Below, in pieces: positions 23,711-52,019 of a DNA stretch of 64,000 bases. The first letter of the stretch is position 1. Every line of letters starts with the position of its first letter. The translations under genes and the position numbers were made by a program. The notes beneath the pieces were generated by a model. The model was not told the DNA's origin. It made no database searches and worked only from the letters and a program-made list of their open reading frames with translations. Origin of the DNA: Protaetiibacter mangrovi (GTDB lineage: Bacteria > Actinomycetota > Actinomycetes > Actinomycetales > Microbacteriaceae); assembly GCF_024752305.1 (NCBI RefSeq), contig NZ_JANTHX010000004.1:310001-374000 (forward strand). Reading direction: 5' to 3'.

Positions 23711-23772
23711 AGACATGTCTGAGACCCTCTGGACACCCGCGCGCGGGTGTCCACGGCGCCGGAGACATGTCT
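23711..23772. repeat. 62-bp symmetrical palindromic repeat, copy A (complete)
   Basis: AGACATGTCT, 10 bases, a 22-bp perfect palindrome made of GGACACCCGCG and its complement CGCGGGTGTCC, 10 bases, AGACATGTCT. Both outer arms are themselves 10-bp palindromes and both spacers are exactly 10 bases. It lies between the rplQ terminator and the convergent acyltransferase stop. Three related copies occur at 49742, 50809 and 52026. I do not recognise a named family. Confidence 0.85.
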
Positions 23773-48157: not shown

Positions 48158-49726
<1,569 letters not shown>

Positions 49727-49741
49727 GTCTCTGCTGGCCAT

Positions 49742-49793
49742 AGACATGTCTATGGCCGGGTGGATACCCGCGCGCGGGTGTCCAGGTGTTCGG
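49742..49793. repeat. Palindromic repeat, copy B (right arm decayed)
   Basis: AGACATGTCT (49742-49751), 10 bases, 22-bp palindrome with one mismatch (49762-49783, GGATACCCGCG / CGCGGGTGTCC), 10 bases, then AATCTTGTCC (49794-49803) where the second arm is expected. Lies between guaB and the orphan AbiEi-like gene. Confidence 0.8.
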
Positions 49794-49887
49794 AATCTTG
49801 TCCTTCACCGGCGTCGCGGGCGGGAGTACGTCCACCGTGGTGCGGCGCGGTCCGGAGCGCGCGGACGCAGCCGGGCATCCTCCCGGC

Positions 49888-50862
49888 ATGGTCGATCTCA
49901 GCCCGGCTCTCATCTACATCGACGAACTGGTCGCCGCAGGGGAGGATGCGCGAGCGTTCCGGCGCGCTGCCCGCGCGGGTCACTTCATCCGCATCCGCCG
50001 GGGCGTCTACGTCGCGCGCGCGGAGTGGGACGCTGCGAGCGAGCGCGAACGCCACATCGCCCGGACCCGCGCGGTCTTCTCCCAGCTCCGGACGGGGTCG
50101 CCTGCGCTGGCGGCCGGATACTCCGCCGCCGCGCTCCACGGTGTTCCGGTGCGACGCCGATGGCCGGAGCACGTCACCCTTCTGATGCCGTATCGCGGAG
50201 GCGGCACCGCCGAACCCGGCGTGGTCCGGACGTCGGCGCGATGGGATGAACGTCACAGCGCGCTCGTGCGGGGCGTGCCGAGCACCTGCCTCGAGCGGAC
50301 CCTGTTCGATGTCGTCCTGCTGGACGGCTTCGCGAACGGCGTCGCGACGCTCGATGCCGCGCTTCGGAGCGGTGCGACGGCGAAGGATGCGCTCCGCGAC
50401 TTCCTCGAGGAGTGGTCTCCCGCCTCCGGCGCCGCGCGGTGCGCGGCCGCGCTCGGGTTCGCGGATGCCGCATCCGAATCGTTCGGGGAGTCTCTCGCCC
50501 GCGCGATCATGCACGCACTCGGATTCGTCGCGCCGGTTCTGCAGCACGAGTTCCGCGATGGCGACGGATCGATGCTGGTCGACTTCTGCTGGCCGCAGCT
50601 CGGGATCGCGGCGGAGTTCGACGGGAAGATGAAGTACACGCGCGACGAGTTCTCCCGCGGCGACCCAGCCGAGGTCGTCTGGCGTGAGAAGCGGCGCGAG
50701 GACCGGTTGCGCCGCCACGTGCGGACGGTCGTGCGGATCGTCTGGGACGATCTCCTCGATCCTCGGCGGCTCGCGCGGCTCCTCGAAGAAGCGGGAGTTC
50801 CGAGGAGCAGACAGCGATACGTGCACCTGGATACCGCCTCGCGGGTGTCTTTCGGGGCGTAG
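49888..50862 (+). CDS. AbiEi-like winged-helix protein with C-terminal PD-(D/E)XK nuclease-like domain
   Basis: 324 residues. About 1-100: winged-helix region as in AbiEi antitoxins (FRRAARAGHFIRIRRGVYVA; PALAAGYSAAALHGVPV). About 215-324: nuclease-like region with VDFCWPQLGIAAEFDGKMKY, giving Asp232, Glu243 and Lys247 in the order of a PD-(D/E)XK site. No toxin gene such as AbiEii is adjacent, so it is an orphan. The ATG directly follows a GCCGGG/CCCGGC hairpin (49870-49887), which would hinder initiation; GTG 49786 is an alternative, giving 358 residues. The last 17 codons are encoded by repeat copy C, and copy B lies upstream. Confidence 0.75.
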   Translation: MVDLSPALIYIDELVAAGEDARAFRRAARAGHFIRIRRGVYVARAEWDAASERERHIARTRAVFSQLRTGSPALAAGYSAAALHGVPVRRRWPEHVTLLMPYRGGGTAEPGVVRTSARWDERHSALVRGVPSTCLERTLFDVVLLDGFANGVATLDAALRSGATAKDALRDFLEEWSPASGAARCAAALGFADAASESFGESLARAIMHALGFVAPVLQHEFRDGDGSMLVDFCWPQLGIAAEFDGKMKYTRDEFSRGDPAEVVWREKRREDRLRRHVRTVVRIVWDDLLDPRRLARLLEEAGVPRSRQRYVHLDTASRVSFGA

Positions 50863-50870
50863 ACATGTCT
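50809..50870. repeat. Palindromic repeat, copy C (left arm decayed), overlapping a gene end
   Basis: AGACAGCGAT (50809-50818) in place of the left arm, 10 bases, degenerate 22-bp centre (50829-50850), 10 bases, perfect AGACATGTCT (50861-50870). The stop codon of the AbiEi-like gene lies at the first two bases of the right arm, so the gene's last 17 codons fall in the repeat. Confidence 0.75.
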
Positions 50871-50897: not shown

Positions 50898-52019
50898 GTG
50901 AGCGACATCGAGATCGGCCGGGCCAAGCGCGCGCGGCGTGCATACGCCTTCGACGACATCGCGATCGTGCCGAGCCGCCGCACGCGCGACCCGAAGGACG
51001 TCAGCGTCAGCTGGACGATCGACGCGTTCACGTTCGACATCCCCGTGCTCGCGGCCCCCATGGACTCGGTCGTGAGCCCCGCGACGGCCATCGCGATCGG
51101 CCGGCTCGGCGGTCTCGGCGTGCTCGACCTCGAGGGCGTCTGGACGCGCTACGAGAACCCGGAGCCCGTGCTCGCCGAGATCCGTTCGCTCGCGGCCGAC
51201 GGCGCCACCGCGCGCATGCAGGAGCTCTACGCCGAGCCGATCAAGCCCGAGCTGATCAAGCAGCGCCTCGCCGAGATCCGCGCCGCCGGCGTGCCGGTCG
51301 CCGGCGCCCTCAGCCCCCAGCGCACCCAGGAGCACTCCCAGGCGGTGCTGGACGCCGGCGTCGACCTCTTCGTCATCCGCGGTACCACGGTGTCGGCCGA
51401 GCACGTCAGCAAGACGGTCGAGCCCCTCAACCTCAAGAAGTTCATCTACGAGCTCGACGTGCCGGTGATCGTCGGCGGCGCCGCCACCTACACCGCCGCG
51501 CTCCACCTCATGCGCACCGGTGCGGCGGGCGTGCTGGTGGGCTTCGGCGGCGGGGCGGCGAGCACGACGCGCACGGGCCTCGGCATCCACGCGCCCATGG
51601 CGACCGCGGTCGCGGATGTGGCGGGTGCGCGTCGCGACTACCTCGACGAGTCGGGCGGCCGCTACGTGCACGTCATCGCCGACGGCGGGCTCGGCACCAG
51701 CGGCGACATCGTGAAGGCCGTGTCGATGGGCGCGGATGCGGTGATGCTGGGCTCGACGCTGGCCCGCGCCGAGGAGGCACCCGGCGGCGGCTGGCACTGG
51801 GGCGCCGAGGCGCACCACCCCGAGCTGCCGCGCGGCAACCGCGTCGCGGTGGGCACGATCGCCCCGCTCGAGCAGGTGCTGTTCGGACCGTCGTCGCACC
51901 CCGACGGCCAGGTGAACCTCATCGGCGCGCTGCGTCGGTCCATGGCGACCACCGGGTACTCCGACCTCAAGGAGTTCCAGCGGGTGGAGGTCGTCGTCGC
52001 GCCCTACCTGCAGAGCTGA
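50898..52019 (+). CDS. GuaB3-family IMP dehydrogenase-related protein
   Basis: 373 residues, a TIM barrel of the IMPDH/GMP reductase superfamily without CBS domains. N-terminus RARRAYAFDDIAIVPSRRTR, APMDSVVSPATAIAIGRLGG, phosphate-binding IADGGLGTSGDIVKAVSMGA, C-terminal LFGPSSHPDGQVNLIGALRR and TGYSDLKEFQRVEVVVAP. At the catalytic loop the Cys is replaced: GFGGGAASTTRTGLG. It therefore probably does not use the thioimidate chemistry of IMPDH; a role as GMP reductase or regulator is open. GTG start supported by the -10 six bases upstream. Confidence 0.9.
   Translation: MSDIEIGRAKRARRAYAFDDIAIVPSRRTRDPKDVSVSWTIDAFTFDIPVLAAPMDSVVSPATAIAIGRLGGLGVLDLEGVWTRYENPEPVLAEIRSLAADGATARMQELYAEPIKPELIKQRLAEIRAAGVPVAGALSPQRTQEHSQAVLDAGVDLFVIRGTTVSAEHVSKTVEPLNLKKFIYELDVPVIVGGAATYTAALHLMRTGAAGVLVGFGGGAASTTRTGLGIHAPMATAVADVAGARRDYLDESGGRYVHVIADGGLGTSGDIVKAVSMGADAVMLGSTLARAEEAPGGGWHWGAEAHHPELPRGNRVAVGTIAPLEQVLFGPSSHPDGQVNLIGALRRSMATTGYSDLKEFQRVEVVVAPYLQS

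Follow-up and report, generated by a model that had tools for sequence, protein, structure and literature searches.

What ties a nuclease-like gene that has no partner toxin to the two palindromic repeats that enclose it? The question is raised by the interval between two guaB paralogues in the window (the whole 64-kb stretch of DNA analyzed here), where copies B and C of a 62-bp element flank a gene joining an AbiEi-type part to a nuclease-like part. The original prediction held that such a protein, acting on the palindromes or moving with them, might represent an undescribed system.

An AbiEi/Vsr-fold gene at the guaB locus

Copies B and C were read directly from the window sequence and lie on the two sides of the gene as had been described, and NCBIfam profiles bore out that the neighbours are two guaB paralogues (Table 1). 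An ATG start is preferred for the gene; an in-frame GTG is also present at 49786. Sequence searches of the PDB gave nothing useful, and the domains were recognized by comparing an AlphaFold2 model of the protein (pLDDT 92.8) with known structures. Residues 4-193 matched AbiEi (6y8q; VIA-align Z 8.9, Foldseek E 2.9e-4), and PADLOC AbiEi profiles matched the protein at 5e-9. Residues 198-305 matched the homing endonuclease I-Bth0305I (3r3p, VIA-align Z 8.2) and Vsr (1cw0, Z 6.7). As modelled, the protein is an AbiEi-antitoxin-like half fused to a nuclease of the homing-endonuclease/Vsr fold.

Across 62 homologues, residues Glu201, Asp232, Glu243 and Gly246 are invariant and Asp245, Lys249, Tyr250 and Arg270 almost invariant. 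Of the site proposed beforehand (Asp232, Glu243, Lys247), the two acidic residues belong to this conserved set; Lys247 is not conserved. Pfam matches in the 62 members comprised AbiEi_4 (29), AbiEi_1 (9), REase_MTES_1575 (5) and DUF559 (3). The description of the gene as AbiEi-type, nuclease-like and devoid of a toxin agreed with these fold matches and with its surroundings: an adjacent AbiEii nucleotidyltransferase toxin gene is absent, guaB and guaB3 being the neighbours, and no toxin partner was found among the adjacent genes examined (guaB, guaB3, a glycerol-3-phosphate dehydrogenase gene and a permease gene).

Table 1. Positions in the window of the nuclease gene, its neighbours and copies of the 62-bp element
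Feature	Position	Strand	Basis
Dispersed copy of the 62-bp element, fully intact	23711..23772	.	
guaB (IMP dehydrogenase), left neighbour	48224..49726	+	NCBIfam TIGR01302
Outer arm of copy B, perfect 22-bp palindrome GGCCATAGACATGTCTATGGCC	49736..49757	.	Read from sequence
Copy B (62 bp), made up of the full arm AGACATGTCT, the central palindrome GGATACCCGCGCGCGGGTGTCC between two spacers, and a half arm with TGTCC at its end	49742..49803	.	
Central palindrome GGATACCCGCGCGCGGGTGTCC of copy B	49762-49783		
AbiEi-like/Vsr-fold nuclease gene, 324 aa	49888..50862	+	Codon-usage gene call, homologue alignment
Residues 4-193, AbiEi antitoxin-like: winged helix and AbiEi C-terminal-like domain	49897..50466	+	VIA-align, Foldseek, PADLOC
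Residues 198-305, predicted homing-endonuclease/Vsr-fold nuclease (Glu201, Asp232, Glu243, Lys249)	50479..50802	+	VIA-align, conservation
Copy C (62 bp), with its half arm facing inward and its full arm AGACATGTCT facing outward; overlaps the gene's 3' end	50809..50870	.	
guaB3, right neighbour	50898..52019	+	NCBIfam TIGR01304
Copy D, right after the guaB3 stop codon	52026..52087	.	

Composition of the 62-bp element

The element consists of AGACATGTCT, 10 bp, RGAC-14 bp-GTCY, 10 bp and AGACATGTCT; in each of copies B, C and D, one arm is full and the other is a half arm. The motif AGACATGTCT occurs five times in the window (0.02 expected) and at 34 sites genome-wide, the reversed control pattern giving none; with a 28-position element score, copies B and C each reached 23 and five shuffled windows gave no score above 18. 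The spacing of the arms is exact in ten full copies. In 46 full copies, the arms and the central half-sites are constant and the spacers vary without covariation. Judged from the aligned copies, a constant motif with free, non-covarying spacers would fit a protein-binding site better than an RNA hairpin.

Other accounts of the copies were rejected. Random decay of the damaged arms is contradicted by the half arms, which in 25/25 cases retain GAC at positions 2-4 behind an A or a G. That the element is mainly an RNA hairpin or terminator disagrees with the non-covarying spacers and with a search of Rfam, in which no family scored above its gathering score. The initial reading of the copies as simple 3'-end terminators was overturned by the comparison of homologues. 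Searches for the element in viral contigs and in plasmids gave no match, a literature search for a known motif name for AGACATGTCT gave no relevant paper, and no full-length AGACATGTCT element was present in 196 other genomes of the family that were searched.

Members of the nuclease family are bracketed by repeats

For each homologue, the upstream flank (-260 to +30) was aligned with the downstream flank (-60 to +300), the gene starts used in this survey being estimates; 639 genes from the window, G003 and G006 served as the control. At a score of at least 40, a bracketing pair was found at 53 of the 79 homologues (67%) and at 12 of the 639 control genes (1.9%; Fisher p 1.7e-48); at a score of at least 60, the figures were 42/79 and 5/639. 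With windows and threshold unchanged, 15 of 25 new homologues (60%) from an independent phylum-wide set were bracketed. These surveys lend strong support to the suggestion that a nuclease-like protein of this kind is tied to palindromes. Bracketing is about 35 times commoner at the nuclease family than at control genes, and the control rate is if anything too high because some of the control hits adjoin copies of the same element families (for example L165 10402-10878, guaB3 of G006). About a third of the homologues, including five of the six paralogues of G012, had no bracketing pair in the windows used.

In the 69 bracketed genes, the repeats have a median length of 76 bp; the upstream one ends a median of 93 bp before the start codon and the downstream one begins a median of 0 bp from the stop codon, overlapping the gene in 34 cases. 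The two repeats are in direct orientation in 32 pairs and inverted in 37. The nuclease family is present in 113 of 296 genomes sampled throughout the phylum. It looks numerous in four large genomes from another family of the class (G263, G319, G298 and G373), with six or seven scored hits per genome, and members in these genomes (L271-L274) are bracketed by private repeats such as GAGCAGACGCGAAAGCCCCC.

The repeat goes with the gene

Repeat sharing was assessed in 1485 gene pairs, 15 of which share a repeat. Where protein identity was at least 60%, 12 of 13 pairs had a repeat in common; among paralogues from the same genome, 0 of 37 pairs did. One paralogue in the window genome (G000:C3:94684) has a wholly different repeat in six copies, two of which bracket it. 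It is the first of two more family members that lie about 10 kb apart in this genome (G000:C3:94684-95550 and G000:C3:104910-105743), and the examination for repeats covered this first one.

At the guaB locus itself, the AGACATGTCT element follows guaB and also marks the 3' end of the nuclease gene in the window genome, in G001 and in G079. The same positions are held by a GGCTCCAGCCGCGCC/GGCGGGAG element instead in G002, G003 and G004, and by GGCGGGAG-type palindromes in G005, G006, G008 and G030; where the locus has another clade of the gene, these positions have another repeat. Conservation of the gene without the repeats had been named as a finding that would speak against the association: species of the same genus do keep the gene without AGACATGTCT, but another palindromic repeat is present at the same positions.

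The elements are also dispersed, with copy numbers derived from searches and samples. The AGACATGTCT element (score of at least 22) has about 26 copies in the window genome, 19 in G001 and 26 in G079, and a different element is dispersed genome-wide in its place in G002-G004. Among the best 40 candidate regions per genome, the G003-type element was found in at least about 40 places in G003 and at least 28 in G002 and in none in the window genome or G001; G006 gave a single weak half match. The repeat of G006 had no copies outside the gene region in a 400-kb sample and dispersal is therefore not universal. Since the paralogue of the window genome has its own repeat and the G003-type element is limited to matching genomes, the repeat families follow the gene clade. 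On the proposed check whether homologues elsewhere are also flanked by this repeat, 53/79 have a repeat pair of their own, AGACATGTCT being limited to the matching clade. Overall, the AbiEi/Vsr-fold family has a strong, phylum-wide and gene-specific association with bracketing palindromes, which in several cases are dispersed.

A putative repeat-enzyme partnership

We favour, at a probability of roughly 0.65, a partnership in which the AbiEi/Vsr-fold protein recognizes its own palindromes and the element population depends on the protein. The protein probably cuts and spreads its palindromes, and we infer binding, cutting and dispersal as follows. The winged-helix half would bind the half-sites RGAC/GTCY, which in the window lineage are about two helical turns apart; the nuclease would nick or cut at the element or at its cruciform or single-stranded form; and new copies would then arise by repair or replication at other intergenic positions, for the most part directly after stop codons. 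Through the upstream copy, the protein probably also controls expression of its own gene in the manner of AbiEi.

Element copies lie a median of 13 bp from a stop codon, with 7 between divergent and 24 between convergent genes. A terminator-like role would also suit this placement and the depletion between divergent genes. The same placement bears on the alternative of a repressor-type regulator, in which the palindromes are operators and make up a regulon or a set of architectural sites instead of being mobile DNA, the nuclease half being vestigial or serving some other purpose. AbiEi antitoxins repress their own operon, and autorepression would be in keeping with the upstream copy in the promoter region of the gene. 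The invariant arms and centre with their free, non-covarying spacers resemble selected binding sites. Against this reading, the elements are found behind stop codons and not at promoters, are depleted between divergent genes and turn over between species; with the nuclease residues invariant in 62 diverse proteins as well, we consider a repressor unlikely.

Occupation of the guaB-guaB3 interval

Of the nine genomes of the genus that were examined, eight have the nuclease gene between guaB and guaB3. It is in the same interval in G079, which belongs to another genus, and beside guaB3 in G030; it has been kept at this locus throughout the genus as well as in two further genera. In G007, the interval contains an unrelated gene and lacks such a repeat. 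In the tree, the genes of the guaB locus form one clade (100/99), inside which those of the window genome, G001 and G079 group together (97/92). The G079 nuclease gene is nearer to that of the window than is the gene of G003, a species of the same genus, whereas guaB and guaB3 show the reverse. G012 and G011 have family members in this interval, one of them oppositely oriented, that come from other parts of the tree, so that the interval has been filled on at least three occasions. Between guaB and guaB3 of G014 (L088), a palindromic element, GCTAGTCTTTCGGC...GCCGAAAGGCTAGC, stands alone with no AbiEi/nuclease gene.

These occupations by separate clades, once in reverse, are consistent with a homing-type selfish unit, in which the gene and two palindromes, serving as ends or targets, insert together and the dispersed elements are relics of internal deletion comparable to transposon miniatures. 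The nuclease fold matches a homing endonuclease and the clusters of paralogues are lineage-specific. The intact arms had been reported to face outwards like the ends of a mobile unit: they do so in the window genome and in G079, and in part only in G001, whose copy C has an intact inner arm and one mismatch in the outer one. Bracketing alone is no proof of a unit, because two ordinary genes of the window genome are bracketed too: trmD (G000:C4:317264-318106; L067:7665-8507) by two copies of the 62-bp element with the full arms outward, and an aquaporin-family gene (G000:C3:20518-21907; L056:2019-3408) likewise by two copies. With this and the long vertical persistence of the gene at guaB-guaB3, the claim that a unit of about 1.1 kb moves as a whole is not supported. 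Nor does the window genome contain multiple identical copies of the whole unit. The comparison of the interval among relatives, proposed as a check, revealed no empty site with one leftover repeat, and the element sites compared with G001 revealed none with a target duplication. Insertion as a selfish unit is improbable, and movement of the gene with its repeats is possible only through the three or more separate occupations of the interval.

A chance position of the gene among hairpin terminators or intergenic repeats of an ordinary kind is strongly disfavoured. Each of copies B, C and D does come after a stop codon, and genes such as trmD and the aquaporin gene are bracketed as well; yet bracketing of the family far exceeds the control rate, the repeat goes with the gene rather than with the genome, and the stem is neither covarying nor assigned to an Rfam family above its gathering score.

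Relation to known systems

RAYT/TnpA-REP systems have a gene, in most cases present once per genome, with cognate palindromes on both sides that also recur in other intergenic regions; every such gene is paired with a repeat specific to it, the repeat co-evolves with the protein, and the family is defined by an HUH/Y1 (IS200/IS605-like) tyrosine transposase (PMC3116915, PMC3733652, PMC8266576). The nuclease family resembles RAYTs and REPtrons in that the gene is bracketed by palindromic repeats also dispersed in the genome, and in that the repeat is gene-specific and inherited together with the gene. In contrast, its enzyme is predicted to combine AbiEi with a Vsr/EDxHD nuclease fold, and no Y1 transposase family was found among the Pfam matches of the 62 members at E 0.01. 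Unlike REPs, the elements are about 60-110 bp long, are symmetric sites of the duplex type and have no GTAG tag. Because a tyrosine transposase is the defining feature of RAYTs, the family is better said to work like a RAYT/REPtron than to be one. TIRtrons (TIRYTs) are genes for tyrosine transposases flanked by inverted repeats that are also found elsewhere in the genome (PMC3733652); the flanking repeats of the nuclease gene recur likewise, but are themselves palindromic and form direct and inverted pairs about equally often (32 vs 37).

The AbiEi fold of residues 4-193 and the matching PADLOC profiles are shared with AbiE, a type IV toxin-antitoxin system, from which the family differs by the missing adjacent AbiEii toxin, the fusion to a nuclease and the associated dispersed repeats. 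Its modelled catalytic fold and conserved acidic residues liken it to the EDxHD/Vsr-fold nucleases (I-Bth0305I, Vsr, REase_MTES_1575 (PMC3710099) and DUF559), the likeness being one of fold and of invariant Glu201, Asp232 and Glu243. Unlike the known nucleases of this group, the gene lies in no intron or intein, has no methyltransferase neighbour, and has an AbiEi half and private flanking palindromes. In the open-access literature we found no earlier description tying DUF559, AbiEi or Vsr-type nucleases to palindromes; an earlier one elsewhere is possible. As the defining features of no known family are present and no description was found, we take the family to be categorically new. A gene with private dispersed palindromes is the known logic of REPtrons, and what is new is the unrelated enzyme class and the likewise unrelated element classes, found phylum-wide; a strict reader might still count the family as a kind of REPtron.

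Until now, REP/REPIN elements have been the chief example of dispersed palindromes that go with a vertically maintained gene. We consider it likely on balance that the AbiEi/Vsr-fold proteins are a phylum-wide class of repeat-partner nucleases, each maintaining and spreading its own palindromes, and that this class is a convergent parallel to RAYT/REPIN that gave rise to many of the unexplained palindromes between genes in this bacterial phylum. If so, a second, unrelated class of enzyme has a REPIN-like organization and such an arrangement has evolved repeatedly; numerous palindromes between genes of high-GC bacteria would be explained, the very common orphan genes annotated as AbiEi antitoxin or DUF559 would gain a function, and many natural pairs of protein and target would be available for studying the evolution of DNA recognition.

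Turnover of elements between species

The flanks of six complete element sites of the window genome were searched in G001. One site clearly shares the element and one has a different palindromic repeat in its place; at the other readable sites, only some of which were comparable on both sides, the element is absent in G001. In this collection of one genome per species, the comparison shows a turnover of elements between species and does not indicate its mechanism. No precise insertion footprint or target duplication was found at the sites compared between the two genomes.

A few single sites are recorded here. At L284 (G001:C3:110629-110794), which is orthologous to an element site of the window genome, the sequence present is a palindromic repeat of a wholly different kind, in two tandem copies (AGGGGTCGCAAACTGC...GCAGTTTGCGTCCCCT). 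At L061, near G000:C3:704725, an element copy lies close to a tRNA-like sequence. Copies are spread very unevenly along G079:C1 (2.88 Mb), one being at 7.9 kb and the next at about 1.09 Mb. In G001, two near-identical full copies lie about 2 kb apart with no called CDS between them (L140, G001:C1:417539-419608).
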